The notes beneath the pieces were generated by a model that searched no databases, was not told the origin of the DNA, and saw only the letters and a program-made list of their open reading frames with translations. A stretch of 64,000 bases of DNA from Antedon mediterranea (taxonomy: Eukaryota > Echinodermata > Crinoidea > Comatulida > Antedonidae), in the NCBI RefSeq assembly GCF_964355755.1, contig NC_092674.1, positions 15,629,001-15,693,000 on the forward strand. The letters run 5' to 3'. The translations under genes were made by a program, and so were the position numbers. Shown here piece after piece: positions 33,746 through 64,000 of the stretch. Numbering within the stretch: position 1 is the first letter of the stretch; each line of letters starts with the position of its first letter.

Positions 33746-33982
33746 CACTTAAATGATTTGTCGGTATGAAATTACAAATTCCAATACTATTAAAAACAAC
33801 TAGCATTTAAATTTAGTTGATATGAAAATATGTTTGAGAATAGACTACAGTTAATGTAAGTTACAGAAGAGTATATTACTATTTACATTATGACACTGTA
33901 ACTGAATATAAATACCAGAATGACACTTGTACAACGATACCAAGCCAATATGTCAGCTAAGAACGTGGTATGGCGTTTAAGC

Positions 33983-34175
33983 ATACTTACCTGGCACAGG
34001 AGCGACTTTGATCAGGAAGGAATGTCCTCCCAAGATGAGGCCTCAGCATTGCACACACGGCTGCAATTGACCCTTGCGATTGACCCTTGCGATTGACCCT
34101 TGTGATTCCCCCAAACGTGGGGAACTCGGGTGTATATTTTATGGTAGCGGGGGACTGCGTTCGCGCTAACCCCCA
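33983..34175 (+). pseudogene. U1 snRNA, edge copy with internal 13-bp triplication
   Basis: Starts ATACTTACCTGG like the others, but attgacccttgcg occurs three times between stems II and III, adding 26 nt. The neighbouring bases also differ. As the outermost copy it probably escapes homogenisation and is unlikely to fold normally. Confidence 0.8.
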
Positions 34176-34519
34176 CCCCAATTCGACATTAATATTAGAT
34201 AGCCTATGCAGTTCAAGATAATCGTTAGTTTAATTAAGAACACTTGATATATAACTATTTATGGTTACATTATCTGTTTTGAAACTTTGTTGGTTTGTAA
34301 CTATTTATTTTCCCATAACAACTATTGGTATAGCATATTAACAGGCGTTGAACGCTTCATAATTATTTCGAAGCGTACGAAGAATAATATCAAACTCTAG
34401 ATTAAACAAAATAAAGTAGTCTATTATAGAACTTACGTATTTAAATAATTTTATTACTTTCTGTTAAACGATAATTATATTTCACTTACAATATGTATAT
34501 TTATAGATATTTTATTTAC

Positions 34520-35371
34520 TTACATGTCATATTGTTCTTGTCGAAGAAGTTTGGCGATAGAAAACCTTTGACATTTTAGACTCAATGATGAAGACGTAGT
34601 ATGTACAGCGTTTAATTGTTCTGTTTCAGTTTGTAAGCAATGCTGTTTTTCTTCGCCATTTCTATCGCTGCAATTCAAGTGGTTTATGGATTGGAGATCT
34701 AGCTCCATCGGTGCATTGCGTGATATCGTATACAGGTATGCCACCCACTCGTTGTAAGTGTTGGATGTTACGTGGTACTTCGTTCCATTCACTATAATGA
34801 TATATGGCAGATAGTATTGCCAACCGTCTGTCAATCGATACCTATAACAAGAAAACAACATTATTTATTAATAACGATGATCATGTAAATAAATAATAAG
34901 GATAATCAATGGTATTTCTGTTAAAATTACAAATGTAAGGAGCATTACTAGTAAAATGACAAAAGTACTGTAACCGAATAAGTAATGTAAGTAAGTTGCA
35001 GGCAGTGAGTTTTATTTAAGAAAAGGTTATTACAAATAATGTGGTAGAAAGAAGTTTCGTATCGATCAGTAAATTACCTGTAAAAACCAACATTGTTATT
35101 GCAATGAATAAGTTGGTTTAATAATGTAAATCACATACCTGTGTCTGTCAACCTTTTCGATATACGGAGATTCACTGAAGATCTGTCGAACACATTCTCT
35201 GACATTCTTCATATTATACTTCTCCGGACAAATTTTATCAATAATGTGCAGCACGTTTAGAGAACCGCTGGTAGTATCTGGACAACGGAGAAGAGCCGCC
35301 ACAACAAGTTCTTGAAATGAGAGAGGCATCATCAATGTATCGGTGAGATCGGAGAACATCATGCAAGACAT
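34520..35371 (-). CDS. Unrecognised 184-residue protein in the U1 unit, copy 1 (reference description)
   Basis: Two exons, 35139-35371 and 34520-34841, join in phase 2 across a GT-AG intron (CACAG/GTATGT and TTGTTATAG/G) to give 184 residues. I do not recognise the family. Residues about 15-80 look like a winged helix: an amphipathic helix (SFQELVVAALL), a second helix (LNVLHIIDKI), a third (VRECVRQIF) and a basic end (KVDRHRYRL). The third part resembles forkhead recognition helices, which is inference only. Residues 80-135 are hydrophobic and aromatic (WQYYLPYIIIVNG); the C-terminus is polar. No signal peptide. It is tail to tail with the U1 gene of its unit and head to head with the next one. 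This copy has MKNV where the others have MRNV. Start chosen at the first M (MSCMMF); an upstream exon cannot be excluded. Confidence 0.6.
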
Positions 35372-35855
35372 ATTTAGGTTATTCGTCGTTCGGATAATAG
35401 TCGAATGGTAGCTTTTCAGATAATTCAGTTGACTTTAATAGTTGAATGCCGTAGAAATCAAAGGCACACCATTTTATAAATGTCTTTGTCGGTTAGATAT
35501 TAATGAAAGGACAAGAAAAACACAATAGAAACAATGGCTGCGTTGAGTAACGCGGGCGCAATCGCAACAATAAACAATTTTAAAACAATAGAAACGGTAA
35601 AGCAAAGAAAGCAGATGACACTTTAATGATTTGTCGGTATGAAATTACAACTTCCAATACTATTAAAAACAACTAGCATTTAAATTTAGTTGATATGAAA
35701 ATATGTTTGAGAATAGACTACAGTTAATGTAAGTTACAGAAGAGTATATTACTATTTACATTATGACACTGTAACTGAATATAAATACCAGAATGACACT
35801 TGTACAACGATACCAAGCCAATATGTCAGCTAAGAAGGTGGTATGGCGTTTAAGC
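35372..35855. promoter_or_regulatory. Head-to-head spacer between the coding gene and the next U1 gene
   Basis: About 480 bp that must contain both the U1 promoter (plus strand) and the promoter of the minus-strand gene. It recurs with little change in every unit. A 30-codon plus-strand frame starts at 35534 (MAALSNAG, good start context acaATGG) and ends at 35626. In three other copies it differs by amino-acid-changing substitutions only, so it is probably not a gene. PSE and enhancer motifs could not be assigned by eye. Confidence 0.5.
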
Positions 35856-36023
35856 ATACTTACCTGGCACAGGAGCGACTTTGATCAGGAAGGAATGTCC
35901 TCCCAAGATGAGGCCTCAGCATTGCACACACGGCTGCGGTTGACCCTTGCGATTCCCCCAAACGTGGGGAACTCGGGTGTATAATTTATGGTAGCGGGGG
36001 ACTGCGTTCGCGCTAACCCCCCA
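35856..36023 (+). ncRNA. U1 snRNA, copy 2 (reference description)
   Basis: The 5' end ATACTTACCTG pairs with 5' splice sites. Stem-loop I carries GATCAGGAAG (U1-70K site), stem-loop II carries ATTGCAC (U1A site), ATAATTTATGG is the Sm site, and GGGGGACTGCGTTCGCGC with AACCCCC is stem-loop IV. Standard copies are 167 nt (human 164); this one has an extra C in the last stem. RNA polymerase II snRNA promoter elements should lie in the conserved 60-110 nt upstream, but I cannot assign the PSE. A 3'-box-like GTTTAATTAAGAACA lies at 36077-36091, further off than usual. Product: core of the U1 snRNP that selects 5' splice sites. Confidence 0.95.
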
Positions 36024-36380
36024 CCCCAATTCGACATTAATATTAGATAAGCCTATGCAGTTCACGATAATCGTTAGTTTAATTAAGAACACTTGATATA
36101 TAACTATTTATGGTTACATTATCTGGTTTGAAACTTTGTCGGTTTGTAACTATTTATTTTCCCTTAACAACTATTGGTATAGCATATTGACAGGCGTTGA
36201 ACGCTTCATAATTATTTCGAAGCGTACGAAGAATAATATCAAACTCTAGATTAAACAAAATCAAGTAGTCTATTATAGAACTTAGGTATTTAAATAATTT
36301 TATTACTTTCTGTTAAACGATAATTATATTTCACTTACAATATGTATTAAATGCTATTTATTTATAGATATTTTATTTAT

Positions 36381-37232
36381 TTACATGTCATATTGTTCTT
36401 GTCGAAGAAGTTTGGCGATAGAAAACCTTTGACATTTTAGACTCAATGATGAAGACGTAGTATGTACAGCGTTTAATTGTTCTGTTTCAGTTTGTAAGCA
36501 ATGCTGTTTTTCTTCGCCATTTCTATCGCTGCAATTCAAGTGGTTTATGGATTGGAGATCTAGCTCCATCGGTGCATTGCGTGATATCGTATACAGGTAT
36601 GCCACCCACTCGTTGTAAGTGTTGGATGTTACGTGGTACTTCGTTCCATTCACTATAATGATATATGGCAGATAGTATTGCCAACCGTCTGTCAATCGAT
36701 ACCTATAACAAGAAAACAACATTATTTATTAATAACGATGATCATGTAAATAAATAATAAGGATAATCAATGGTATTTCTGTTAAAATTACAAATGTAAG
36801 GAGCATTACTAGTAAAATGACAAAAGTACTGTAACCGAATAAGTAATGTAAGTAAGTTGCAGGCAGTGAGTTTTATTTAAGAAAAGGTTATTACAAATAA
36901 TGTGGTAGAAAGAAGTTTCGTATCGATCAGTAAATTACCTGTAAAGGCCAACATTGTTATTGCAATGAATAAGTTGGTTTAATGATGTAAATCACATACC
37001 TGTGTCTGTCAACCTTTTCGATATACGGAGATTCACTGAAGATCTGTCGAACACATTCTCTGACATTCCTCATATTATACTTCTCCGGACAAATTTTATC
37101 AATAATGTGCAGCACGTTTAGAGAACCGCTGGTAGTATCTGGACAACGGAGAAGAGCCGCCACAACAAGTTCTTGAAATGAGAGAGGCATCATCAATGTA
37201 TCGGTGAGATCGGAGAACATCATGCAAGACAT
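36381..37232 (-). CDS. U1-unit protein, copy 2
   Basis: Exons 37000-37232 and 36381-36702. C-terminus RQEQYDM as in copy 1. The frame is open a few codons further upstream (MTNNLN). Confidence 0.6.
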
Positions 37233-37716
37233 ATTTAGGTTATTCGTCATTCGGATAATAGTCGAATGGTAGCTTTTCAGATAATTCAGTTGACTTTAAT
37301 AGTTGAATGCCGTAGAAATCAAAGGCACACCATTTTATAAATGTCTTTGTCGGTTAGATATTAATGAAAGAACAAGAAAAACACAATAGAAACAATGGCT
37401 GCGTTGAGTAACGCGGGCGCAATCGCAACAATAAACAATTTTAAAACAATAGAAACGGTAAAGCAAAGAAAGCAGATGACACTTTAATGATTTGTCGGTA
37501 TGAAATTACAACTTCCAATACTATTAAAAACAACTAGCATTTAAATTTAGTTGATATGAAAATATGTTTGAGAATAGACTACAGTTAATGTAAGTTACAG
37601 AAGAGTATATTACTATTTACATTATGACACTGTAACTGAATATAAATACCAGAATGACACTTGTACAACGATACCAAGCCAATATGTCAGCTAAGAAGGT
37701 GGTATGGCGTTTAAGC

Positions 37717-37883
37717 ATACTTACCTGGCACAGGAGCGACTTTGATCAGGAAGGAATGTCCTCCCAAGATGAGGCCTCAGCATTGCACACACGGCTGCGG
37801 TTGACCCTTGCGATTCCCCCAAACGTGGGGAACTCGGGTGTATAATTTATGGTAGCGGGGGACTGCGTTCGCGCTAACCCCCA
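37717..37883 (+). ncRNA. U1 snRNA, copy 3
   Basis: Standard 167-nt form; first gene of a short (1,697-bp) unit. Confidence 0.95.
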
Positions 37884-38149
37884 CCCCAATTCGACATTAA
37901 TATTAGATAAGCCTATGCAGTTCACGATAATCGTTAGTTTAATTAAGAACACTTGATATATAACTATTTATGGTTACATTATCTGTTTTGAAACTTTGTT
38001 GGTTTGTAACTATTTATTTTCCCTTAACAACTATTGGTATAGCATATTGACAGGCGTTGAACGCTTCATAATTATTTCGAAGCGTACGAAGAATAATATC
38101 AAACTCTAGATTAAACAAAATCAAGTAGTCTATTATAGAACTTACGTAT

Positions 38150-38929
38150 TTAAATAGTATGTACAGCGTTTAATTGTTCTGTTTCAGTTTGTAAGCAATG
38201 CTGTTTTTCTTCGCCATTTCTATCGCTGCAATTCAAGTGGTTTATGGATTGGAGATCTAGCTCCATCGGTGCATTGCGTGATATCGTATACAGGTATGCC
38301 ACCCACTCGTTGTAAGTGTTGGATGTTACGTGGTACTTCGTTCCATTCACTATAATGATATATGGCAGATAGTATTGCCAACCGTCTGTCAATCGATACC
38401 TATAACAAGAAAACAACATTATTTATTAATAACGATGATCATGTAAATAAATAATAAGGATAATCAATGGTATTTCTGTTAAAATTACAAATGTAAGGAG
38501 CATTACTAGTAAAATGACAAAAGTACTGTAACCGAATAAGAAATGTAAGTAAGTTGCAGGCAGTGAGTTTTATTTAAGAAAAGGTTATTACAAATAATGT
38601 GGTAGAAAGAAGTTTCGTATCGATCAGTAAATTACCTCTAAAGGCCAACATTGTTATTGCAATGAATAAGTTGGTTTAATAATGTAAATCACATACCTGT
38701 GTCTGTCAACCTTTTCGATATACGGAGATTCACTGAAGATCTGTCGAACACATTCTCTGACATTCCTCATATTATACTTCTCCGGACAAATTTTATCAAT
38801 AATGTGCAGCACGTTTAGAGAACCGCTGGTAGTATCTGGACAACGGAGAAGAGCCGCCACAACAAGTTCTTGAAATGAGAGAGGCATCATCAATGTATCG
38901 GTGAGATCGGAGAACATCATGCAAGACAT
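38150..38929 (-). CDS. U1-unit protein, copy 3, short form
   Basis: Exons 38697-38929 and 38150-38399. The 163-bp deletion replaces the last 25 residues by Ile-stop after NAVHT, giving 160 residues. Confidence 0.55.
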
Positions 38930-39413
38930 ATTTAGGTTATTCGTCGTTCGGATAATAGTCGAATGGTAGCTTTTCAGATAATTCAGTTGACTTTAATAGT
39001 TGAATGCCGTAGAAATCAAAGGCACACCATTTTATAAATGTCTTTGTCGGTTAGATATTAATGAAAGAACAAGAAAAACACAATAGAAACAATGGCTGCG
39101 TTGAGTAACGCGGGCGCAATCGCAACAATAAACAATTTTAAAACAATAGAAACGGTAAAGCAAAGAAAGCAGATGACACTTTAATGATTTGTCGGTATAA
39201 AATTACAACTTCCAATACTATTAAAAACAACTAGCATTTAAATTTAGTTGATATGAAAATATGTTTGAGAATAGACTACAGTTAATGTAAGTTACAGAAG
39301 AGTATATTACTATTTACATTATGACACTGTAACTGAATATAAATACCAGAATGACACTTGTACAACGATACCAAGCCAATATGTCAGCTAAGAAGGTGGT
39401 ATGGCGTTTAAGC

Positions 39414-39580
39414 ATACTTACCTGGCACAGGAGCGACTTTGATCAGGAAGGAATGTCCTCCCAAGATGAGGCCTCAGCATTGCACACACGGCTGCGGTTG
39501 ACCCTTGCGATTCCCCCAAACGTGGGGAACTCGGGTGTATAATTTATGGTAGCGGGGGACTGCGTTCGCGCTAACCCCCA
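39414..39580 (+). ncRNA. U1 snRNA, copy 4
   Basis: Standard form; long unit. Confidence 0.95.
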
Positions 39581-39937
39581 CCCCAATTCGACATTAATAT
39601 TAGATAAGCCTATGCAGTTCACGATAATCGTTAGTTTAATTAAGAACACTTGATATATAACTATTTATGGTTACATTATCTGTTTTGAAACTTTGTTGGT
39701 TTGTAACTATTTATTTTCCCTTAACAACTATTGGTATAGCATATTGACAGGCGTTGAACGCTTCATAATTATTTCGAAGCGTACGAAGAATAATATCAAA
39801 CTCTAGATTAAACAAAATCAAGTAGTCTATTATAGAACTTAGGTATTTAAATAATTTTATTACTTTCTGTTAAACGATAATTATATTTCACTTACAATAT
39901 GTATTAAATGCTATTTATTTATAGATATTTTATTTAT

Positions 39938-40789
39938 TTACATGTCATATTGTTCTTTTCGAAGAAGTTTGGCGATAGAAAACCTTTGACATTTTAGACT
40001 CAATGATGAAGACGTAGTATGTACAGCGTTTAATTGTTCTGTTTCAGTTTGTAAGCAATGCTGTTTTTCTTCGCCATTTCTATCGCTGCAATTCAAGTGG
40101 TTTATGGATTGGAGATCTAGCTCCATCGGTGCATTGCGTGATATCGTATACAGGTATGCCACCCACTCGTTGTAAGTATTGGATGTTACGTGGTACTTCG
40201 TTCCATTCACTATAATGATATATGGCAGATAGTATTGCCAACCGTCTGTCAATCGATACCTATAACAAGAAAACAACATTATTTATTAATAACGATGATC
40301 ATGTAAATAAATAATAAGGATAATCAATGGTATTTCTGTTAAAATTACAAATGTAAGGAGCATTACTAGTAAAATGACAAAAGTATTGTAACCGAATAAG
40401 TAATGTAAGTAAGTTGCAGGCAGTGAGTTTTATTTAAGAAAAGGTTATTACAAATAATGTGGTAGAAAGAAGTTTCGTATCGATCATTAAATTACCTGTA
40501 AAGGCCAACATTGTTATTGCAATGAATAAGTTGGTTTAATAATGTAAATCACATACCTGTGTCTGTCAACCTTTTCGATATACGGAGATTCATTGAAGAT
40601 CTGTCGAACACATTCTCTGACATTCCTCATATTATACTTCTCCGGACAAATTTTATCAATAATGTGCAGCACGTTTAGAGAACCGCTGGTAGTATCTGGA
40701 CAACGGAGAAGAGCCGCCACAACAAGTTCTTGAAATGAGAGAGGCATCATCAATGTATCGGTGAGATCGGAGAACATCATGCAAGACAT
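39938..40789 (-). CDS. U1-unit protein, copy 4
   Basis: Long form; QIFNESP variant (Ser to Asn in the third helix) and RKEQYDM end. Confidence 0.6.
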
Positions 40790-41273
40790 ATTTAGGTTAT
40801 TCGTCGTTCGGACAATAGTCGAATGGTAGCTTTTCAGATAATTCAGTTGACTTTAATAGTTGAATGCCGTAGAAATCAAAGGCACACCATTTTATAAATG
40901 TCTTTGTCGGTTAGATATTAATGAAAGAACAAGAAAAACACAATAGAAACAATGGCTGCGTTTAGTAACGCGGGCGCAATCGCAACAATAAACAATTTTA
41001 AAACAATAGAAACGGTAAAGCAAAGAAAGCAGATGACACTTTAATGATTTGTCGGTATGAAATTACAACTTCCAATACTATTAAAAACAACTAGCATTTA
41101 AATTTAGTTGATATGAAAATATGTTTGAGAATAGACTACAGTTAATGTAAGTTACAGAAGAGTATATTACTATTTACATTATGACACTGTAACTGAATAT
41201 AAATACCAGAATGACACTTGTACAACGATACCAAGCCAATATGTCAGCTAAGAAGGTGGTATGGCGTTTAAGC

Positions 41274-41440
41274 ATACTTACCTGGCACAGGAGCGACTTT
41301 GATCAGGAAGGAATGTCCTCCCAAGATGAGGCCTCAGCATTGCACACACGGCTGCGGTTGACCCTTGCGATTCCCCCAAACGTGGGGAACTCGGGTGTAT
41401 AATTTATGGTAGCGGGGGACTGCGTTCGCGCTAACCCCCA
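41274..41440 (+). ncRNA. U1 snRNA, copy 5
   Basis: Standard form; downstream flank has gactttaat instead of gacattaat. Confidence 0.95.
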
Positions 41441-41797
41441 CCCCAATTCGACTTTAATATTAGATAAGCCTATGCAGTTCACGATAATCGTTAGTTTAAT
41501 TAAAAACACTTGATATATAACTATTTATGGTTACATTATCTGTTTTGAAACTTTGTTGGTTTGTAACTATTTATTTTCCCTTAACAACTATTGGTATAGC
41601 ATATTGACAGGCGTTGAACGCTTCATAATTATTTCGAAGCGTACGAAGAATAATATCAAACTCTAGATTAAACAAAATCAAGTAGTCTATTATAGAACTT
41701 AGGTATTTAAATAATTTTATTACTTTCTGTTAAACGATAATTATATTTCACTTACAATATGTATTAAATGCTATTTATTTATAGATATTTTATTTAT

Positions 41798-42649: not shown

Positions 42650-43133
42650 ATTTAGGTTATTCGTCGTTCGGATAATAGTCGAATGGTAGCTTTTCAGATA
42701 ATTCAGTTGACTTTAATAGTTGAATGCCGTAGAAATCAAAGGCACACCATTTTATAAATGTCTTTGTCGGTTAGATATTAATGAAAGAACAAGAAAAACA
42801 CAATAGAAACAATGGCTGCGTTGAGTAACGCGGGCGCAATCGCAACAATAAACAATTTTAAAACAATAGAAACGGTAAAGCAAAGAAAGCAGATGACACT
42901 TTAATGATTTGTCGGTATGAAATTACAACTTCCAATACTATTAAAAACAACTAGCATTTAAATTTAGTTGATATGAAAATATGTTTGAGAATAGACTACA
43001 GTTAATGTAAGTTACAGAAGAGTATATTACTATTTACATTATGACACTGTAACTGAATATAAATACCAGAATGACACTTGTACAACGATACCAAGCCAAT
43101 ATGTCAGCTAAGAAGGTGGTATGGCGTTTAAGC

Positions 43134-43300
43134 ATACTTACCTGGCACAGGAGCGACTTTGATCAGGAAGGAATGTCCTCCCAAGATGAGGCCTCAGCAT
43201 TGCACACACGGCTGCGGTTGACCCTTGCGATTCCCCCAAACGTGGGGAACTCGGGTGTATAATTTATGGTAGCGGGGGACTGCGTTCGCGCTAACCCCCA
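43134..43300 (+). ncRNA. U1 snRNA, copy 6
   Basis: Standard form; short unit. Confidence 0.95.
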
Positions 43301-43566
43301 CCCCAATTCGACATTAATATTAGATAAGCCTATGCAGTTCACGATAATCGTTAGTTTAATTAAGAACACTTGATATATAACTATTTATGGTTACATTATC
43401 TGTTTTGAAACTTTGTTGGTTTGTAACTATTTATTTTCCCTTAACAACTATTGGTATAGCATATTGACAGGCGTTGAACGCTTCATAATTATTTCGAAGC
43501 GTACGAAGAATAATATCAAACTCTAGATTAAACAAAATCAAGTAGTCTATTATAGAACTTACGTAT

Positions 43567-44346
43567 TTAAATAGTATGTACAGCGTTTAATTGTTCTGTT
43601 TCAGTTTGTAAGCAATGCTGTTTTTCTTCGCCATTTCTATCGCTGCAATTCAAGTGGTTTATGGATTGGAGATCTAGCTCCATCGGTGCATTGCGTGATA
43701 TCGTATACAGGTATGCCACCCACTCGTTGTAAGTGTTGGATGTTACGTGGTACTTCGTTCCATTCACTATAATGATATATGGCAGATAGTATTGCCAACC
43801 GTCTGTCAATCGATACCTATAACAAGAAAACAACATTATTTATTAATAACGATGATCATGTAAATAAATAATAAGGATAATCAATGGTATTTCTGTTAAA
43901 ATTACAAATGTAAGGAGCATTACTAGTAAAATGACAAAAGTACTGTAACCGAATAAGAAATGTAAGTAAGTTGCAGGCAGTGAGTTTTATTTAAGAAAAG
44001 GTTATTACAAATAATGTGGTAGAAAGAAGTTTCGTATCGATCAGTAAATTACCTCTAAAGGCCAACATTGTTATTGCAATGAATAAGTTGGTTTAATAAT
44101 GTAAATCACATACCTGTGTCTGTCAACCTTTTCGATATACGGAGATTCACTGAAGATCTGTCGAACACATTCTCTGACATTCCTCATATTATACTTCTCC
44201 GGACAAATTTTATCAATAATGTGCAGCACGTTTAGAGAACCGCTGGTAGTATCTGGACAACGGAGAAGAGCCGCCACAACAAGTTCTTGAAATGAGAGAG
44301 GCATCATCAATGTATCGGTGAGATCGGAGAACATCATGCAAGACAT
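43567..44346 (-). CDS. U1-unit protein, copy 6, short form
   Basis: Same deletion junction as copy 3; 160 residues. Confidence 0.55.
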
Positions 44347-44830
44347 ATTTAGGTTATTCGTCGTTCGGATAATAGTCGAATGGTAGCTTTTCAGATAATT
44401 CAGTTGACTTTAATAGTTGAATGCCGTAGAAATCAAAGGCACACCATTTTATAAATGTCTTTGTCGGTTAGATATTAATGAAAGAACAAGAAAAACACAA
44501 TAGAAACAATGACTGCGTTGAGTAACGCGGGCGCAATCGCAACAATAAACAATTTTAAAACAATAGAAACGGTAAAGCAAAGAAAGCAGATGACACTTTA
44601 ATGATTTGTCGGTATAAAATTACAACTTCCAATACTATTAAAAACAACTAGCATTTAAATTTAGTTGATATGAAAATATGTTTGAGAATAGACTACAGTT
44701 AATGTAAGTTACAGAAGAGTATATTACTATTTACATTATGACACTGTAACTGAATATAAATACCAGAATGACACTTGTACAACGATACCAAGCCAATATG
44801 TCAGCTAAGAAGGTGGTATGGCGTTTAAGC

Positions 44831-46690: not shown

Positions 46691-46857
46691 ATACTTACCT
46701 GGCACAGGAGCGACTTTGATCAGGAAGGAATGTCCTCTCAAGATGAGGCCTCAGCATTGCACACACGGCTGCGGTTGACCCTTGCGATTCCCCCAAACGT
46801 GGGGAACTCGGGTGTATAATTTATGGTAGCGGGGGACTGCGTTCGCGCTAACCCCCA
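46691..46857 (+). ncRNA. U1 snRNA, copy 8
   Basis: C to T in the stem I region (gtcctctcaag); short unit. The change is shared with copy 9. Confidence 0.95.
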
Positions 46858-47123
46858 CCCCAATTCGACATTAATATTAGATAAGCCTATGCAGTTCACG
46901 ATAATCGTTAGTTTAATTAAAAACACTTGATATATAACTATTTATGGTTACATTATCTGTTTTGAAACTTTGTTGGTTTGTAACTATTTATTTTCCCTTA
47001 ACAACTATTGGTATAGCATATTGACAGGCGTTGAACGCTTCATAATTATTTCGAAGCGTACGAAGAATAATATCAAACTCTAGATTAAACAAAATCAAGT
47101 AGTCTATTATAGAACTTACGTAT

Positions 47124-47903
47124 TTAAATAGTATGTACAGCGTTTAATTGTTCTGTTTCAGTTTGTAAGCAATGCTGTTTTTCTTCGCCATTTCTATCGC
47201 GGCAATTCAAGTGGTTTATGGATTGGAGATCTAGCTCCATCGGTGCATTGCGTGATATCGTATACAGGTATGCCACCCACTCGTTGTAAGTGTTGGATGT
47301 TACGTGGTACTTCGTTCCATTCACTATAATGATATATGGCAGATAGTATTGCCAACCGTCTGTCAATCGATACCTATAACAAGAAAACAACATTATTTAT
47401 TAATAACGATGATCATGTAAATAAATAATAAGGATAATCAATGGTATTTCTGTTAAAATTACAAATGTAAGGAGCATTACTAGTAAAATGACAAAAGTAC
47501 TGTAACCGAATAAGAAATGTAAGTAAGTTGCAGGCAGTGAGTTTTATTTAAGAAAAGGTTATTACAAATAATGTGGTAGAAAGAAGTTTCGTATCGATCA
47601 GTAAATTACCTCTAAAGGCCAACATTGTTATTGCAATGAATAAGTTGGTTTAATAATGTAAATCACATACCTGTGTCTGTCAACCTTTTCGATATACGGA
47701 GATTCACTGAAGATCTGTCGAACACATTCTCTGACATTCCTCATATTATACTTCTCCGGACAAATTTTATCAATAATGTGCAGCACGTTTAGAGAACCGC
47801 TGGTAGTATCTGGACAACGGAGAAGAGCCGCCACAACAAGTTCTTGAAATGAGAGAGGCATCATCAATGTATCGGTGAGATCGGAGAACATCATGCAAGA
47901 CAT
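47124..47903 (-). CDS. U1-unit protein, copy 8, short form
   Basis: Short form with an extra Ser to Arg change (HLNCRDRN). Confidence 0.55.
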
Positions 47904-48387
47904 ATTTAGGTTATTCGTCGTTCGGATAATAGTCGAATGGTAGCTTTTCAGATAATTCAGTTGACTTTAATAGTTGAATGCCGTAGAAATCAAAGGCACA
48001 CCATTTTATAAATGTCTTTGTCGGTTAGATATTAATGAAAGAACAAGAAAAACACAATAGAAACAATGGCTGCGTTGAGTAACGCGGGCGCAAACGCAAC
48101 AATAAACAATTTTAAAACAATAGAAACGGTAAAGCAAAGAAAGCAGATGACACTTTAATGATTTGTCGGTATGAAATTACAACTTCCAATACTATTAAAA
48201 ACAACTAGCATTTAAATTTAGTTGATATGAAAATATGTTTGAGAATAGACTACAGTTAATGTAAGTTACAGAAGAGTATATTACTATTTACATTATGACA
48301 CTGTAACTGAATATAAATACCAGAATGACACTTGTACAACGATACCAAGCCAATATGTCAGCTAAGAAGGTGGTATGGCGTTTAAGC

Positions 48388-50247: not shown

Positions 50248-50414
50248 ATACTTACCTGGCACAGGAGCGACTTTGATCAGGAAGGAATGTCCTCCCAAGA
50301 TGAGGCCTCAGCATTGCACACACGGCTGCGGTTGACCCTTGCGATTCCCCCAAACGTGGGGAACTCGGGTGTATAATTTATGGTAGCGGGGGACTGCGTT
50401 CGCGCTAACCCCCA
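50248..50414 (+). ncRNA. U1 snRNA, copy 10
   Basis: Standard form; its unit runs into the transposon-split spacer. Confidence 0.95.
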
Positions 50415-50771
50415 CCCCAATTCGACATTAATATTAGATAAGCCTATGCAGTTCACGATAATCGTTAGTTTAATTAAGAACACTTGATATATAACTATTT
50501 ATGGTTACATTATCTGTTTTGAAACTTTGTTGGTTTGTAACTATTTATTTTCCCTTAACAACTATTGGTATAGCATATTGACAGGCGTTGAACGCTTCAT
50601 AATTATTTCGAAGCGTACGAAGAATAATATCAAACTCTAGATTAAACAAAATCAAGTAGTCTATTATAGAACTTAGGTATTTAAATAATTTTATTACTTT
50701 CTGTTAAACGATAATTATATTTCACTTACAATATGTATTAAATGCTATTTATTTATAGATATTTTATTTAT

Positions 50772-51623
50772 TTACATGTCATATTGTTCTTTTCGAAGAA
50801 GTTTGGCGATAGAAAACCTTTGACATTTTAGACTCAATGATGAAGACGTAGTATGTACAGCGTTTAATTGTTCTGTTTCAGTTTGTAAGCAATGCTGTTT
50901 TTCTTCGCCATTTCTATCGCTGCAATTCAAGTGGTTTATGGATTGGAGATCTAGCTCCATCGGTGCATTGCGTGATATCGTATACAGGTATGCCACCCAC
51001 TCGTTGTAAGTGTTGGATGTTACGTGGTACTTCGTTCCATTCACTATAATGATATATGGCAGATAGTATTGCCAACCGTCTGTCAATCGATACCTATAAC
51101 AAGAAAACAACATTATTTATTAATAACGATGATCATGTAAATAAATAATAAGGATAATCAATGGTATTTTTGTTAAAATTACGAATGTAAGGAGCATTAC
51201 TAGTAAAATGACAAAAGTACTGTAACCGAATAAGTAATGTAAGTAAGTTGCAGGCAGTGAGTTTTATTTAAGAAAAGGTTATTACAAATAATGTGGTAGA
51301 AAGAAGTTTCGTATCGATCAGTAAATTACCTCTAAAGGCCAACATTGTTATTGCAATGAATAAGTTGGTTTAATAATGTAAATCACATACCTGTGTCTGT
51401 CAACCTTTTCGATATACGGAGATTCACTGAAGATCTGTCGAACACATTCTCTGACATTCCTCATATTATACTTCTCCGGACAAATTTTATCAATAATGTG
51501 CAGCACGTTTAGAGAACCGCTGGTAGTATCTGGACAACGGAGAAGAGCCGCCACAACAAGTTCTTGAAATGAGAGAGGCATCATCAATGTATCGGTGAGA
51601 TCGGAGAACATCATGCAAGACAT
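50772..51623 (-). CDS. U1-unit protein, copy 10
   Basis: Long form with the same intron variant as copy 5. The spacer upstream of its start is split by the transposon from 51973. Confidence 0.6.
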
Positions 51624-51972
51624 ATTTAGGTTATTCGTCGTTCGGATAATAGTCGAATGGTAGCTTTTCAGATAATTCAGTTGACTTTAATAGTTGAATG
51701 CCGTAGAAATCAAAGGCACACCATTTTATAAATGTCTTTGTCGGTTAGATATTAATGAAAGAACAAGAAAAACACAATAGAAACAATGGCTGCGTTGAGT
51801 AACGCGGGCGCAATCGCAACAATAAACAATTTTAAAACAATAGAAACGGTAAAGCAAAGAAAGCAGATGACACTTTAATGATTTGTCGGTATGAAATTAC
51901 AACTTCCAATACTATTAAAAACAACTAGCATTTAAATTTAGTTGATATGAAAATATGTTTGAGAATAGACTA

Positions 51973-54334
51973 CACACTAAAAAAAAAAGGTGCAAATCTC
52001 TACCTAAAAAGGTGCAAACCGATGCAACAATAGCAGCTCCCTTTAAGGTGCACAACTGCACCTTTGACGGAAGGTGCAATTTTGAACCCTGATAAAGGGT
52101 GCTATAATGCTCCTTTGGAGTTCACATTTGCACCATATAAGGTGTAATTTTCTACCCTAAAAGGTGCAAACTAAATGCAACAATAGCAGCTCCCCAAAGG
52201 AGCAAAATTCAACCTCTAAATAAAGGTGCAACTTTACACCCTAATAAAAGGTTCAATAATGCTCCTCTAAGATTCAAATTTCTGTTAAAAAGGTGCACAA
52301 ATAAAAATCACTAAAATACAAAAAATATTGATTAAGCTTTATATAATTTTATTCAACTTTAAAACATTACATTATTCAATTCAACTGCTGAATTAATGGA
52401 TGGCAATTACCAGTCTCTGCACCTTAAATAGAGTGTGGCCATCTCTTCTCAAACCAACAATAGGCCTATTGTTAAAATTATCTAATGATGACATCTTTGG
52501 CAGTATTCTCTTCTTATCCCCATATATCTGAAACAGTGTTCTTGATGTCTGGTTCACCTTTTCCGAACATTTTCACCTGATTAAGTACTTTCCTAAAAAG
52601 CATGAAATAGGAAGGGAAACTATTATATATTATCATTAATATGACAACATCATACAATACATTATTGACATTGTTCTGATTTTTAAAGTCAAATTACCTT
52701 GACCACATGCTTTACATACTTTAAAGTATGTTCCTCTCCCTTTCCTCAGCTCGTAGTATAGTAGGCCCTATATACATTACTAGAGTATTACAGTACATGT
52801 GGTCACATTTCTTTCTCCTTTTCTGAACATCTTTATTGCTGCTGATTAGAGCAGAGGTGCTCTTTCATGTTTTAAACTTATTTTATCCCTCCATGACATC
52901 ATGTAGGCTGTAACTATAATTAAAAATAATGATAATGTGTATAAGAATTTAATATAGGCCTAGGCCTAATAATACCCAGCTACTGTAATAACTAATATTA
53001 ATAACTAGGCCCCTGGCCTGCCTAGCTAGGCCTATTATTAATTATAGGCCTAGCCGGGTAGCTAGGCCTAGGACTGCTTTTAATTAAGTTTAAGGTCTAG
53101 GCCTACCTAGGCCTAGTAACCTTTAGTTTAGGCATAGCCTAGCTAGCCTATATGCCTAACCTACTAGCTAGACCCAGGTAAGTAGGCTAGGCCTGGTCTA
53201 GGACTAGCCCCCACCCGAAAGGCTACTGTAGGCTAAGTAGGCCTCTAGACTGCCTACTTTAGGCTTAACCTAGCCTAGGCCTGGGCCTAATATAGGCCGC
53301 CTAGATAGGCTAGGGCTAGGTAGGAGGCCTCTAGCTAGCCATATTTATTTATTTAGCTATCATTTTTAAGTTTTAGGCCTAGCCTAGGCTTATAGGCCTA
53401 TACAATAATTAATCTAATAAAAACAACCAAACTACATGCCTATAAAGCTTCGTTACTTACTTTTAACAGCTATCCTACACTGGAGAGGTGTGGGAGCTAG
53501 CCTAGGCCTAGTTTAATTTTATAGCCTGATTTTTTGGGCGCAAACTCCTCAATTCAAACTGCATGTTTAACAACCGCACGCGCCTAAAATTATTGTTCAA
53601 TTCCTGTTTCAAATAAATTTAGAACAGATGCCTACATTATGATATTAGATATTCTAATAATATTGTTAAATATGACAGAAAAGTTTACTTATTCTAGAAT
53701 TAAGCAAACCAGAGTAAATAACCTCTGAAATTCAATATTTTAACAATTGTTTACAGACATCTTGCGTGCGCATACGGTACGAAAATTGTACAAAAATTGT
53801 ACAAAAAGGTGCTATTATGCACCTTTTAACTGATGTTAAACCTTATAGGGTGCCCAGTTGAACCTTTGAATTTATCATGTTAAAGGTATTAAACTTTAAT
53901 TTTCAGTTAGGCCTACAAGCCAGCGACTTTCTAATGTTCCGTAAAAAAAAGATTTGTTCGAATTCCGATAGCTGTCCCCACAAACCTATCTATATTATTA
54001 TTAATCTTTCTTATTTTTGTTTTAACTTACCACAATAATGTCATTCTAAAAAAATTGTCCTTATCATCACCTTTTAAGCTTTTAGAAGCCCTAAGTTAAA
54101 CATATCAAGAAGCGTTCATTAATCTAATAGGTCTTATTTGTCACACAGTCACCATGGCCTACTTGGGCCTTTGCGGTGCAGTTCTGCACCTTTTTATACT
54201 TGTCTGCATTTTTCGATATAAAAGGTGCAAAAATAAACCTTTTATGAACTCTGCACCATTTTATGAGAAAAAGGCGCAAATTAGCACCCTTTTATAGGTT
54301 TGCACCTTTTATTGCACCTTTAGTTTTAAGTGTG
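51973..54334. mobile_element. TA-flanked DNA transposon with GGTGCA-rich ends, inserted in one U1 unit
   Basis: 2,362 bp with CACACTAAAA at the left end and TTTTAAGTGTG at the right, flanked by TA at 51971-51972 and 54335-54336. Removing it and one TA restores gactacagttaatg exactly as in all sister units. Both ends hold several copies of aaaggtgcaaa in opposite orientation. The middle is rich in taggccta. No transposase frame is seen, so it is non-autonomous; TA duplication suggests a Tc1/mariner-type transposase. Confidence 0.8.
52393..52572 (-). other. Terminal-exon-like open frame inside the TA transposon
   Basis: 59 open codons (with QIYGDKKRILP and GLRRDGHTLFK) end at TAA 52393-52395, followed 40 nt later by AATAAA on the minus strand (52348-52353). 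This looks like the last exon of a captured gene, but there is no clean acceptor and I recognise no domain. Confidence 0.25.
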
Positions 54335-54471
54335 TACAGTTAATGTAAGTTACAGAAGAGTATATTACTATTTACATTATGACACTGTAACTGAATATAA
54401 ATACCAGAATGACACTTGTACAACGATACCAAGCCAATATGTCAGCTAAGAAGGTGGTATGGCGTTTAAGC

Positions 54472-55847: not shown

Positions 55848-56331
55848 ATTTAGGTTATTCGTCGTTCGGATAATAGTCGAATGGTAGCTTTTCAAATAAT
55901 TCAGTTGACTTTAATAGTTGAATGCCGTAGAAATCAAAGGCACACCATTTTATAAATGTCTTTGTCGGTTAGATATTAATGAAAGAACAAGAAAAACACA
56001 ATAGAAACAATGGCTGCGTTGAGTAACGCGGGCGCAATCGCAACAATAAACAATTTTAAAACAATAGAAACGGTAAAGCAAAGAAAGCAGATGACACTTT
56101 AATGATTTGTCGGTATGAAATTACAACTTCCAATACTATTAAAAACAACTAGCATTTAAATTTAGTTGATATGAAAATATGTTTGAGAATAGACTACAGT
56201 TAATGTAAGTTACAGAAGAGTATATTACTATTTACATTATGACACTGTAACTGAATATAAATACCAGAATGACACTTGTACAACGATACCAAGCCAATAT
56301 GTCAGCTAAGAAGGTGGTATGGCGTTTAAGC

Positions 56332-56498
56332 ATACTTACCTGGCACAGGAGCGACTTTGATCAGGAAGGAATGTCCTCCCAAGATGAGGCCTCAGCATTG
56401 CACACACGGCTGCGGTTGACCCTTGCGATTCCCCCAAACGTGGGGAACTCGGGTGTATAATTTATGGTAGCGGGGGACTGCGTTCGCGCTAACCCCCA
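56332..56498 (+). ncRNA. U1 snRNA, copy 12
   Basis: Standard form. Confidence 0.95.
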
Positions 56499-56855
56499 CC
56501 CCAATTCGACATTAATATTAGATAAGCCTATGCAGTTCACGATAATCGTTAGTTTAATTAAGAACACTTGATATATAACTATTTATGGTTACATTATCTG
56601 TTTTGAAACTTTGTTGGTTTGTAACTATTTATTTTCCCTTAACAACTATTGGTATAGCATATTGACAGGCGTTGAACGCTTCATAATTATTTCGAAGCGT
56701 ACGAAGAATAATATCAAACTCTAGATTAAACAAAATCAAGTAGTCTATTATAGAACTTAGGTATTTAAATAATTTTATTACTTTCTGTTAAACGATAATT
56801 ATATTTCACTTACAATATGTATTAAATGCTATTTATTTATAGATATTTTATTTAT

Positions 56856-57707
56856 TTACATGTCATATTGTTCTTTTCGAAGAAGTTTGGCGATAGAAAA
56901 CCTTTGACATTTTAGACTCAATGATGAAGACGTAGTATGTACAGCGTTTAATTGTTCTGTTTCAGTTTGTAAGCAATGCTGTTTTTCTTCGCCATTTCTA
57001 TCGCTGCAATTCAAGTGGTTTATGGATTGGAGATCTAGCTCCATCGGTGCATTGCGTGATATCGTATACAGGTATGCCACCCACTCGTTGTAAGTGTTGG
57101 ATGTTACGTGGTACTTCGTTCCATTCACTATAATGATATATGGCAGATAGTATTGCCAACCGTCTGTCAATCGATACCTATAACAAGAAAACAACATTAT
57201 TTATTAATAACGATGATCATGTAAATAAATAATAAGGATAATCAATGGTATTTCTGTTAAAATTACAAATGTAAGGAGCATTACTAGTAAAATGACAAAA
57301 GTATTGTAACCGAATAAGTAATGTAAGTAAGTTGCAGGCAGTGAGTTTTATTTAAGAAAAGGTTATTACAAATAATGTGGTAGAAAGAAGTTTCGTATCG
57401 ATCATTAAATTACCTGTAAAGGCCAACATTGTTATTGCAATGAATAAGTTGGTTTAATAATGTAAATCACATACCTGTGTCTGTCAACCTTTTCGATATA
57501 CGGAGATTCATTGAAGATCTGTCGAACACATTCTCTGACATTCCTCATATTATACTTCTCCGGACAAATTTTATCAATAATGTGCAGCACGTTTAGAGAA
57601 CCGCTGGTAGTATCTGGACAACGGAGAAGAGCCGCCACAACAAGTTCTTGAAATGAGAGAGGCATCATCAATGTATCGGTGAGATCGGAGAACATCATGC
57701 AAGACAT
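56856..57707 (-). CDS. U1-unit protein, copy 12
   Basis: Long form, QIFNESP variant. Confidence 0.6.
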
Positions 57708-58191
57708 ATTTAGGTTATTCGTCGTTCGGATAATAGTCGAATGGTAGCTTTTCAGATAATTCAGTTGACTTTAATAGTTGAATGCCGTAGAAATCAAAGG
57801 CACACCATTTTATAAATGTCTTTGTCGGTTAGATATTAATGAAAGAACAAGAAAAACACAATAGAAACAATGGCTGCGTTGAGTAACGCGGGCGCAATCG
57901 CAACAATAAACAATTTTAAAACAATAGAAACGGTAAAGCAAAGAAAGCAGATGACACTTTAATGATTTGTCGGTATGAAATTACAACTTCCAATACTATT
58001 AAAAACAACTAGCATTTAAATTTAGTTGATATGAAAATATGTTTGAGAATAGACTACAGTTAATGTAAGTTACAGAAGAGTATATTACTATTTACATTAT
58101 GACACTGTAACTGAATATAAATACCAGAATGACACTTGTACAACGATACCAAGCCAATATGTCAGCTAAGAAGGTGGTATGGCGTTTAAGC

Positions 58192-58358
58192 ATACTTACC
58201 TGGCACAGGAGCGACTTTGATCAGGAAGGAATGTCCTCCCAAGATGAGGCCTCAGCATTGCACACACGGCTGCGGTTGACCCTTGCGATTCCCCCAAACG
58301 TGGGGAACTCGGGTGTATAATTTATGGTAGCGGGGGACTGCGTTCGCGCTAACCCCCA
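58192..58358 (+). ncRNA. U1 snRNA, copy 13
   Basis: Standard form. Confidence 0.95.
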
Positions 58359-58715
58359 CCCCAATTCGACATTAATATTAGATAAGCCTATGCAGTTCAC
58401 GATAATCGTTAGTTTAATTAAGAACACTTGATATATAACTATTTATGGTTACATTATCTGTTTTGAAACTTTGTTGGTTTGTAACTATTTATTTTCCCTT
58501 AACAACTATTGGTATAGCATATTGACAGGCGTTGAACGCTTCATAATTATTTCGAAGCGTACGAAGAATAATATCAAACTCTAGATTAAACAAAATCAAG
58601 TAGTCTATTATAGAACTTAGGTATTTAAATAATTTTATTACTTTCTGTTAAACGATAATTATATTTCACTTACAATATGTATTAAATGCTATTTATTTAT
58701 AGATATTTTATTTAT

Positions 58716-59567
58716 TTACATGTCATATTGTTCTTTTCGAAGAAGTTTGGCGATAGAAAACCTTTGACATTTTAGACTCAATGATGAAGACGTAGTATGT
58801 ACAGCGTTTAATTGTTCTGTTTCAGTTTGTAAGCAATGCTGTTTTTCTTCGCCATTTCTATCGCTGCAATTCAAGTGGTTTATGGATTGGAGATCTAGCT
58901 CCATCGGTGCATTGCGTGATATCGTATACAGGTATGCCACCCACTCGTTGTAAGTGTTGGATGTTACGTGGTACTTCGTTCCATTCACTATAATGATATA
59001 TGGCAGATAGTATTGCCAACCGTCTGTCAATCGATACCTATAACAAGAAAACAACATTATTTATTAATAACGATGATCATGTAAATAAATAATAAGGATA
59101 ATCAATGGTATTTCTGTTAAAATTACAAATGTAAGGAGCATTACTAGTAAAATGACAAAAGTACTGTAACCGAATAAGAAATGTAAGTAAGTTGCAGGCA
59201 GTGAGTTTTATTTAAGAAAAGGTTATTACAAATAATGTGGTAGAAAGAAGTTTCGTATCGATCAGTAAATTACCTCTAAAGGCCAACATTGTTATTGCAA
59301 TGAATAAGTTGGTTTAATAATGTAAATCACATACCTGTGTCTGTCAACCTTTTCGATATACGGAGATTCACTGAAGATCTGTCGAACACATTCTCTGACA
59401 TTCCTCATATTATACTTCTCCGGACAAATTTTATCAATAATGTGCAGCACGTTTAGAGAACCGCTGGTAGTATCTGGACAACGGAGAAGAGCCGCCACAA
59501 CAAGTTCTTGAAATGAGAGAGGCATCATCAATGTATCGGTGAGATCGGAGAACATCATGCAAGACAT
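58716..59567 (-). CDS. U1-unit protein, copy 13
   Basis: Long form, QIFSESP, RKEQYDM. Confidence 0.6.
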
Positions 59568-60051
59568 ATTTAGGTTATTCGTCGTTCGGATAATAGTCGA
59601 ATGGTAGCTTTTCAGATAATTCAGTTGACTTTAATAGTTGAATGCCGTAGAAATCAAAGGCACACCATTTTATAAATGTCTTTGTCGGTTAGATATTAAT
59701 GAAAGAACAAGAAAAACACAATAGAAACAATGGCTGCGTTGAGTAACGCGGGCGCAATCGCAACAATAAACAATTTTAAAACAATAGAAACGGTAAAGCA
59801 AAGAAAGCAGATGACACTTTAATGATTTGTCGGTATGAAATTACAACTTCCAATACTATTAAAAACAACTAGCATTTAAATTTAGTTGATATGAAAATAT
59901 GTTTGAGAATAGACTACAGTTAATGTAAGTTACAGAAGAGTATATTACTATTTACATTATGACACTGTAACTGAATATAAATACCAGAATGACACTTGTA
60001 CAACGATACCAAGCCAATATGTCAGCTAAGAAGGTGGTATGGCGTTTAAGC

Positions 60052-60218
60052 ATACTTACCTGGCACAGGAGCGACTTTGATCAGGAAGGAATGTCCTCCC
60101 AAGATGAGGCCTCAGCATTGCACACACGGCTGCGGTTGACCCTTGCGATTCCCCCAAACGTGGGGAACTCGGGTGTATAATTTATGGTAGCGGGGGACTG
60201 CGTTCGCGCTAACCCCCA
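60052..60218 (+). ncRNA. U1 snRNA, copy 14
   Basis: Standard form. Confidence 0.95.
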
Positions 60219-60575
60219 CCCCAATTCGACATTAATATTAGATAAGCCTATGCAGTTCACGATAATCGTTAGTTTAATTAAGAACACTTGATATATAACT
60301 ATTTATGGTTACATTATCTGTTTTGAAACTTTGTTGGTTTGTAACTATTTATTTTCCCTTAACAACTATTGGTATAGCATATTGACAGGCGTTGAACGCT
60401 TCATAATTATTTCGAAGCGTACGAAGAATAATATCAAACTCTAGATTAAACAAAATCAAGTAGTCTATTATAGAACTTAGGTATTTAAATAATTTTATTA
60501 CTTTCTGTTAAACGATAATTATATTTCACTTACAATATGTATTAAATGCTATTTATTTATAGATACTTTATTTAT

Positions 60576-61427
60576 TTACATGTCATATTGTTCTTTTCGA
60601 AGAAGTTTGGCGATAGAAAACCTTTGACATTTTAGACTCAATGATGAAGACGTAGTATGTACAGCGTTTAATTGTTCTGTTTCAGTTTGTAAGCAATGCT
60701 GTTTTTCTTCGCCATTTCTATCGCTGCAATTCAAGTGGTTTATGGATTGGAGATCTAGCTCCATCGGTGCATTGCGTGATATCGTATACAGGTATGCCAC
60801 CCACTCGTTGTAAGTGTTGGATGTTACGTGGTACTTCGTTCCATTCACTATAATGATATATGGCAGATAGTATTGCCAACCGTCTGTCAATCGATACCTA
60901 TAACAAGAAAACAACATTATTTATTAATAACGATGATCATGTAAATAAATAATAAGGATAATCAATGGTATTTCTGTTAAAATTACAAATGTAAGGAGCA
61001 TTACTAGTAAAATGACAAAAGTACTGTAACCGAATAAGAAATGTAAGTAAGTTGCAGGCAGTGAGTTTTATTTAAGAAAAGGTTATTACAAATAATGTGG
61101 TAGAAAGAAGTTTCGTATCGATCAGTAAATTACCTCTAAAGGCCAACATTGTTATTGCAATGAATAAGTTGGTTTAATAATGTAAATCACATACCTGTGT
61201 CTGTCAACCTTTTCGATATACGGAGATTCACTGAAGATCTGTCGAACACATTCTCTGACATTCCTCATATTATACTTCTCCGGACAAATTTTATCAATAA
61301 TGTGCAGCACGTTTAGAGAACCGCTGGTAGTATCTGGACAACGGAGAAGAGCCGCCACAACAAGTTCTTGAAATGAGAGAGGCATCATCAATGTATCGGT
61401 GAGATCGGAGAACATCATGCAAGACAT
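60576..61427 (-). CDS. U1-unit protein, copy 14
   Basis: Long form, same protein as copy 13. Confidence 0.6.
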
Positions 61428-61911
61428 ATTTAGGTTATTCGTCGTTCGGATAATAGTCGAATGGTAGCTTTTCAGATAATTCAGTTGACTTTAATAGTTG
61501 AATGCCGTAGAAATCAAAGGCACACCATTTTATAAATGTCTTTGTCGGTTAGATATTAATGAAAGAACAAGAAAAACACAATAGAAACAATGGCTGCGTT
61601 GAGTAACGCGGGCGCAATCGCAACAATAAACAATTTTAAAACAATAGAAACGGTAAAGCAAAGAAAGCAGATGACACTTTAATGATTTGTCGGTATGAAA
61701 TTACAACTTCCAATACTATTAAAAACAACTAGCATTTAAATTTAGTTGATATGAAAATATGTTTGAGAATAGACTACAGTTAATGTAAGTTACAGAAGAG
61801 TATATTACTATTTACATTATGACACTGTAACTGAATATAAATACCAGAATGACACTTGTACAACGATACCAAGCCAATATGTCAGCTAAGAAGGTGGTAT
61901 GGCGTTTAAGC

Positions 61912-62078
61912 ATACTTACCTGGCACAGGAGCGACTTTGATCAGGAAGGAATGTCCTCCCAAGATGAGGCCTCAGCATTGCACACACGGCTGCGGTTGAC
62001 CCTTGCGATTCCCCCAAACGTGGGGAACTCGGGTGTATAATTTATGGTAGCGGGGGACTGCGTTCGCGCTAACCCCCA
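61912..62078 (+). ncRNA. U1 snRNA, copy 15
   Basis: Standard form. Confidence 0.95.
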
Positions 62079-62435
62079 CCCCAATTCGACATTAATATTA
62101 GATAAGCCTATGCAGTTCACGATAATCGTTAGTTTAATTAAGAACACTTGATATATAACTATTTATGGTTACATTATCTGTTTTGAAACTTTGTTGGTTT
62201 GTAACTATTTATTTTCCCTTAACAACTATTGGTATAGCATATTGACAGGCGTTGAACGCTTCATAATTATTTCGAAGCGTACGAAGAATAATATCAAACT
62301 CTAGATTAAACTAAATCAAGTAGTCTATTATAGAACTTAGGTATTTAAATAATTTTATTACTTTCTGTTAAACGATAATTATATTTCACTTACAATATGT
62401 ATTAAATGCTATTTATTTATAGATATTTTATTTAT

Positions 62436-63287
62436 TTACATGTCATATTGTTCTTTTCGAAGAAGTTTGGCGATAGAAAACCTTTGACATTTTAGACTCA
62501 ATGATGAAGACGTAGTATGTACAGCGTTTAATTGTTCTGTTTCAGTTTGTAAGCAATGCTGTTTTTCTTTGCCATTTCTATCGCTGCAATTCAAGTGGTT
62601 TATGGATTGGAGATCTAGCTCCATCGGTGCATTGCGTGATATCGTATACAGGTATGCCACCCACTCGTTGTAAGTGTTGGATGTTACGTGGTACTTCGTT
62701 CCATTCACTATAATGATATATGGCAGATAGTATTGCCAACCGTCTGTCAATCGATACCTATAACAAGAAAACAACATTATTTATTAATAACGATGATCAT
62801 GTAAATAAATAATAAGGATAATCAATGGTATTTCTGTTAAAATTACAAATGTAAGGAGCATTACTAGTAAAATGACAAAAGTACTGTAACCGAATAAGAA
62901 ATGTAAGTAAGTTGCAGGCAGTGAGTTTTATTTAAGAAAAGGTTATTACAAATAATGTGGTAGAAAGAAGTTTCGTATCGATCAGTAAATTACCTCTAAA
63001 GGCCAACATTGTTATTGCAATGAATAAGTTGGTTTAATAATGTAAATCACATACCTGTGTCTGTCAACCTTTTCGATATACGGAGATTCACTGAAGATCT
63101 GTCGAACACATTCTCTGACATTCCTCATATTATACTTCTCCGGACAAATTTTATCAATAATGTGCAGCACGTTTAGAGAACCGCTGGTAGTATCTGGACA
63201 ACGGAGAAGAGCCGCCACAACAAGTTCTTGAAATGAGAGAGGCATCATCAATGTATCGGTGAGATCGGAGAACATCATGCAAGACAT
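62436..63287 (-). CDS. U1-unit protein, copy 15
   Basis: Long form with Glu to Lys (RNGKEKQ). Confidence 0.6.
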
Positions 63288-63771
63288 ATTTAGGTTATTC
63301 GTCGTTCGGATAATAGTCGAATGGTAGCTTTTCAGATAATTCAGTTGACTTTAATAGTTGAATGCCGTAGAAATCAAAGGCACACCATTTTATAAATGTC
63401 TTTGTCGGTTAGATATTAATGAAAGAACAAGAAAAACACAATAGAAACAATGGCTGCGTTGAGTAACGCGGGCGCAATCGCAACAATAAACAATTTTAAA
63501 ACAATAGAAACGGTAAAGCAAAGAAAGCAGATGACACTTTAATGATTTGTCGGTATGAAATTACAACTTCCAATACTATTAAAAACAACTAGCATTTAAA
63601 TTTAGTTGATATGAAAATATGTTTGAGAATAGACTACAGTTAATGTAAGTTACAGAAGAGTATATTACTATTTACATTATGACACTGTAACTGAATATAA
63701 ATACCAGAATGACACTTGTACAACGATACCAAGCCAATATGTCAGCTAAGAAGGTGGTATGGCGTTTAAGC

Positions 63772-63938
63772 ATACTTACCTGGCACAGGAGCGACTTTGA
63801 TCAGGAAGGAATGTCCTCCCAAGATGAGGCCTCAGCATTGCACACACGGCTGCGGTTGACCCTTGCGATTCCCCCAAACGTGGGGAACTCGGGTGTATAA
63901 TTTATGGTAGCGGGGGACTGCGTTCGCGCTAACCCCCA
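63772..63938 (+). ncRNA. U1 snRNA, copy 16
   Basis: Standard form; its downstream flank is cut by the window end. Confidence 0.95.
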
Positions 63939-64000
63939 CCCCAATTCGACATTAATATTAGATAAGCCTATGCAGTTCACGATAATCGTTAGTTTAATTA

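Follow-up and report, generated by a model that had tools for sequence, protein, structure and literature searches.

Why should a tandem array of genes for U1 small nuclear RNA (snRNA) carry a protein gene in each of its repeats? The question arises from a 64,000-nt stretch of the genome of the crinoid Antedon mediterranea (contig NC_092674.1, positions 15,629,001 to 15,693,000; hereafter the window), in which an earlier note, made from the sequence alone, had described U1 genes alternating with copies of a reverse-strand open reading frame (ORF) in two exons. We analysed this array in the window and in the whole genome (354 Mb in 18 contigs, designated here by C-numbers). Our preferred explanation, to which we assign a probability of roughly 0.6, is that a repressor-like gene was co-amplified with a variant U1 gene, has been homogenised by recombination within the array, and is still coding in most of its copies.

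A reverse-strand frame occupies every interval of a U1 array

Rfam model RF00003 identifies 16 U1 genes on the + strand of the window, the first starting at 33983 and the last at 63772. They follow one another, start to start, at 1860-1861 bp, or at 1697 bp in short units; the outliers are the first unit (1873 bp) and one insertion-bearing unit (4224 bp). Each of the 15 gaps between neighbouring U1 genes contains a two-exon frame on the reverse strand, and the alternation described from the letters alone thus holds on counting. Including the part to the right of the window, the array forms one block of ~90 kb (C5:15,662,983-15,752,909) with 47 U1 genes and 46 intervals, and it is present once in the genome. 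A blastn search of one unit against the window and its right flank showed the units to be 97-100% identical across ~1.86 kb. This regularity is far beyond chance, and it agrees with the proposal that the protein gene was amplified and homogenised along with U1.

33746-64000, no strand assigned: left part of the U1/ORF tandem array, from blastn of one unit; the right end, at C5:15,753,352, lies outside the window
33983-34175, + strand: first U1 copy, degenerate, with a 13-bp repeat expansion and an altered Sm site, TATATTTTATGG
35856-36022, + strand: U1 snRNA gene of the intact array type (RF00003, 127-131 bits)
37717, 39414, 41274, 43134, 44831, 46691, 48388, 50248, 54472, 56332, 58192, 60052, 61912 and 63772, + strand: starts of the other intact array-type U1 genes
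37717-39413, no strand assigned: short 1697-bp unit with a 163-bp deletion; further short units at 43134-44830 and 46691-48387
51975-54334, no strand assigned: 2.36-kb insertion that ends in short inverted repeats (CACACTWAAAA), apparently with TA duplicated at the target; a U1 gene starts ~135 bp downstream

Short units recur along the array as multi-unit patterns, as would be expected of unequal crossing over. The 2.36-kb insertion, carried by the unit at 50248-54471, is probably a non-autonomous DNA transposon. We propose that a variant U1 gene and its divergent reverse-strand neighbour would have formed the duplicated unit, that unequal exchange would have expanded this unit into the 90-kb array, and that unequal crossing over together with gene conversion would keep the copies alike.

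The frame has the features of a spliced gene

In the first copy, exon 1 ends at 35139 and exon 2 starts at 34841, joined across a GT..AG intron at exactly the positions that the earlier note had predicted.

35139-35371, - strand: exon 1 of the first ORF copy, residues 1-77 plus two bases
34842-35138, - strand: intron of 297 nt, GT..AG, containing in-frame stop codons; both splice sites are preserved in all 46 array copies
34520-34841, - strand: exon 2 of the first ORF copy, through the stop codon; its terminal KCQRFSIAKLLRQEQYDM holds an eh1-type motif
57475-57707, - strand: exon 1 of the reference unit for polymorphism
56856-57177, - strand: exon 2 of the reference unit (184-aa form)
57808-57814, - strand: TATAAAA box, located 107 bp before the start codon and present in 43 of the 46 copies
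56774-56779, - strand: AATAAA polyadenylation signal 3' of the stop codon, with more such signals overlapping or following the stop; in 39 of 46 copies

An acceptor one base away was also considered and was rejected; it yields a 137-aa frame. The window had been thought to hold 15 copies of a 184-residue ORF. The two-exon frame is indeed present in all 15, but only 12 encode 184 aa, and the remaining three (starts 38929, 44346, and 47903) encode 160 aa because the 163-bp deletion removes the C-terminus, including the eh1-type motif, and the polyadenylation signals; AATAAA is missing in the 160-aa units. Over the 46 intervals of the whole array, 33 copies encode 184 aa, seven encode 160 aa, a 13-bp deletion shortens three more to 120 aa, and the last three are disrupted in other ways. 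The motif is missing from the shortened copies. Because it combines a TATA box, one intron, and a polyadenylation signal with intronless paralogues elsewhere, the ORF is, as judged from these features, a genuine spliced protein gene of a small family, probably transcribed by RNA polymerase II from its own TATA promoter.

Diverged paralogues support the splice model and long-term constraint

A genome-wide search recovered an intronless 134-aa paralogue at C5:4,970,708 (51% identity over residues 1-122) and an intronless 214-aa paralogue (46% identity), whose frame starts on the minus strand at C5:5,881,613. It also recovered a broken copy of the latter at C5:4.98 Mb and a copy on C11 with 95-97% DNA identity. 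Across the splice junction, the array protein is 40-51% identical to the intronless paralogues, and both of their frames pass through the exon junction gap-free (VDRHRYRLTDGW / VGKNRYHLMDGW / VCRHKYRLRDGW), which provides independent support for the splice model. The earlier note had named the lack of a homologue outside the near-identical repeats as a ground for refutation; this ground fails, since the loci at C5:4.97 and 5.88 Mb are such homologues, and they are diverged. Between the array protein and its paralogues, nonsynonymous divergence (dN) is 0.36-0.55, and synonymous divergence (dS) is at least 1 and often saturated. Constraint on the protein is therefore clear over the long term. 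A chance ORF was among the candidates and was rejected on the diverged paralogues with their low dN/dS.

The scarcity of genome copies, the intronless paralogues, and the lack of a known family would also suit the frame of a mobile element or virus that had inserted in a U1 unit before amplification. We disfavour this origin as highly improbable: there is no transposase, no terminal repeats, and no high copy number (just five or so loci genome-wide), IMG/VR contains no relative, and the array copy contains a spliceosomal intron.

A C-terminal eh1-type motif suggests a repressor

The first 120 residues are conserved between the array protein and the 214-aa paralogue; after a linker that does not align, both proteins end in a conserved KCQxFSIxxLL, whose eh1-type core reads FSIAKLL in the array protein and FSINALL in the paralogue. 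The Groucho-binding eh1 core has F at position 0, S at 1, I at 2, and L or I at 5 and 6, and near-identical motifs occur in insect FoxA (FSITRLL) and mammalian FoxH1 (FSIKSLL) (PMC1939712). Both cores match the pattern that we tested, F-[S/T]-I-x-x-[L/I]-[L/I/M] with conservation among homologues; the loose pattern arises in ~1% of shuffles of either protein. We suggest that the array protein is likely an eh1-bearing, repressor-like protein.

By eye, the N-terminal half resembles the region from helix 1 to helix 3 of a forkhead domain. The comparison with a FOX profile was marginal: the score of the 5.88-Mb paralogue was reached by 1 of 432 shuffles and that of the array protein by 45 of 446. 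Neither the array protein nor the paralogues had a match to the Forkhead family (PF00250) in Pfam at E<=10, and the reading frames of the most divergent FOX genes of the genome contained no eh1-like motif. We keep a FOX origin as no more than a weak suggestion. Among the FOX genes themselves, loci L042-L045 are strongly diverged and single-exon, with WKNSVRH and GKDN[YF]W motifs, and L042-L044 have C-terminal PLDLS motifs too (possible CtBP sites).

Under our preferred explanation, the protein would probably be a transcriptional repressor, with an N-terminal DNA-binding domain of the winged-helix type, possibly forkhead-derived, and with a C-terminal eh1 motif that probably recruits Groucho/TLE. 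Transcription of the gene, DNA binding, and Groucho binding are all predicted from sequence.

Several results weigh against this explanation, with regard both to the protein and to its copies. First, the winged-helix fold that the earlier note had seen in the N-terminal half remains unproven. It gained a marginal forkhead similarity (hhalign P=0.029 versus the genome's own FOX proteins, with 7 of 300 column shuffles equal or better), but no sequence match in Pfam or PDB was obtained for the array protein, the paralogues, or their profile. AlphaFold models were poor, with a predicted local distance difference test (pLDDT) score of 59 for exon 1 alone, which forms helices, and 36 for exon 2; the exon-1 model had no PDB structural match below E=1, and the Foldseek matches (E 1.5 and up) are noise. 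The conserved eh1-type motif at the C-terminus is an addition to the earlier note. Second, the 134-aa paralogue at 4.97 Mb has no eh1 motif. Third, 13 of the 46 ORF copies are truncated or broken. Fourth, within the array the counts of 12 nonsynonymous and 6 synonymous variants do not by themselves place the ratio of nonsynonymous to synonymous polymorphism (pN/pS) significantly under the neutral value (p=0.24).

The third and fourth results also favour the main rival, possible though doubtful, in which a once-functional gene was swept up when U1 was amplified and now evolves by drift, in early decay, its intact frames reflecting recent and fast homogenisation. A nonsense variant is present, divergence among the array copies does not exceed ~1%, so that any decay would be young, and the constraint seen against the paralogues could pre-date the amplification. 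However, nonsynonymous variants (12 per 437 sites) are half as frequent as synonymous plus noncoding variants (56 per 1050 sites, presumed neutral; p=0.029), no copy has lost its splice sites and few have lost the TATA box, and the full frame is kept in 33 copies. Constraint inside the present array is, on this variation, probable but not certain, and we retain a co-amplified, mostly still coding gene as the better explanation.

The array encodes a distinct U1 isoform

Fifteen of the U1 genes in the window score 127-131 bits against RF00003 (cut-off 69.5 bits) and are full length (model positions 1-166); the first copy scores 109 bits. The array U1 has the 5' end that pairs with the 5' splice site (ATACTTACCTG), conserved loops, and stems that are maintained between isoforms, and its Sm site (AATTTATGG) is kept in all copies except the first and one other. 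With its repeat expansion and altered Sm site, the first copy is probably a pseudogene.

Outside the array, the genome has five more U1 genes of full or near-full length. Three of them, two at C9:4.08 Mb and another at C3:6.44 Mb, are mutually identical, 88% identical to the array type, and score 135.8 bits; the copy at C5:20.28 Mb is 93% identical to the array type, and that at C5:11.07 Mb is degenerate. Where array and dispersed U1 differ, stem pairing is mostly preserved, in some cases by changes on both sides of a stem. Given 88% identity to the main dispersed U1 and the retention of paired stem changes, the array U1 is a distinct, functional-looking isoform, and the genome has two U1 isoform classes. 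Such classes are described for sea urchin and frog development (PMC5159530, PMC4291461).

The protein gene is absent beside the five dispersed U1 genes (5-6.5 kb examined at each). As a control array, we used a separate tandem U2 array on C3 with 780-bp units (L041, C3:13659800-13663300), whose units contain no ORF of at least 80 aa; a protein gene per unit is thus not general among the snRNA arrays of this genome. Dispersed U2 genes also occur on C1, C3, and C8.

A single array-like U1/ORF unit was found as an orphon at C11:8.940-8.952 Mb (L047, C11:8937001-8945000, and L021, C11:8945001-8955000). Its first part, 98-100% identical to the array, consists of a 285-bp U1 flank and of U1 positions 1-131; minisatellite-like insertions follow, after which the unit resumes at U1 position 124 and runs through exon 1 at 95-97.5% DNA identity. 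The 8-bp overlap (U1 124-131) is a probable target-site duplication of one of the insertions. From the few-percent divergence of the orphon, the association of U1 with the ORF is older than that divergence.

The U1 promoter flank is invariant

57983-58191, + strand: U1 5' flank of one unit, 209 bp, with the PSE-like ATGACACT at -62

The final 209 bp upstream of U1 are invariant in 45 copies, against ~4% variable positions in the unit and seven variable sites in the U1 gene itself across the array, so that the promoter flank is more uniform than the RNA gene. The octamer ATGACACT, or a close variant, is found near -62 in the array U1 genes, in most of the dispersed ones, and in several U2 genes; it is the probable proximal sequence element (PSE). 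Additional copies occur in the array unit at -92 and -240, the latter just beyond the 209-bp flank.

Such a flank may reflect promoter selection or local gene conversion. One could also imagine a self-limiting cassette, in which the Groucho-recruiting repressor of each unit would bind the shared intergenic region, act on the array's own invariant U1 promoters to repress or time them, and so link array size to the dose of its own repressor. The ORF and the next U1 gene are divergent, with <500 bp from ATG to U1 start, the protein carries the eh1-type motif, and developmental switching of tandem U1 in sea urchin is cited in PMC5159530 and PMC4291461. However, selection or conversion would explain the invariant stretch equally well, and the intronless paralogues are located away from any U1; we regard self-regulation as very improbable. 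If the protein did affect U1 transcription, a regulator would have been co-amplified with its target, which could explain the switching of U1 isoform classes.

Relation to known tandem arrays

We know of no protein-coding gene per unit in the arrays of sea urchin, Xenopus, or primates (RNU2) or in any other U1 cluster. The U1 and U2 tandem arrays of these animals resemble the Antedon array in their homogenised units and in the presence of separate dispersed U1 genes of another isoform, comparable to the developmental U1 classes (described in part in PMC5159530 and PMC4291461). In contrast to them, the Antedon window has a protein gene in every interval.

Tandem arrays of RNA genes or satellites that contain protein genes are nevertheless known. 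TAR1 of yeast ribosomal DNA (rDNA) is likewise an opposite-strand protein gene co-amplified with a tandem RNA-gene repeat (PMC3026818, PMC3563013). It lies antisense within the 25S gene, whereas the Antedon ORF occupies the spacer, undergoes splicing by our model, and has paralogues elsewhere in the genome. DUX4, in the D4Z4 macrosatellite, is a transcription-factor-like gene in tandem units that has retained its reading frame (in part from PMC3836709). D4Z4 differs in having no RNA gene, and its protein family is unrelated to the Antedon ORF. In various animals, 5S rDNA is linked to histone or snRNA genes, which places protein and small-RNA genes in one tandem unit. Histone genes, however, are multicopy, intronless, and housekeeping, whereas the Antedon ORF is diverged, spliced, and of no known family. 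Our search of the open-access literature turned up no U1 array described as having a spliced non-histone protein gene per unit, although this does not prove that none exists. Such an arrangement subjects a coding gene to concerted evolution and makes it share the copy-number changes of a splicing RNA, and the paralogues outside the array make a natural test of selection on a gene under array homogenisation.

Neighbouring features

Adjoining the left edge of the array, at 31694-33671, are two long reverse-strand frames that, from their translation, resemble a Penelope-like reverse transcriptase with a GIY-YIG-like end. Further to the left, at 29741-31174, five near-identical transfer RNA (tRNA) genes are called as tRNA-Asp with the unusual anticodon ATC; four are direct, on a tandem repeat of 364-382 bp, and one is inverted. 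A reverse-strand frame at 12584-12916 resembles, by eye only, a rhamnose-binding (SUEL-type) lectin domain.

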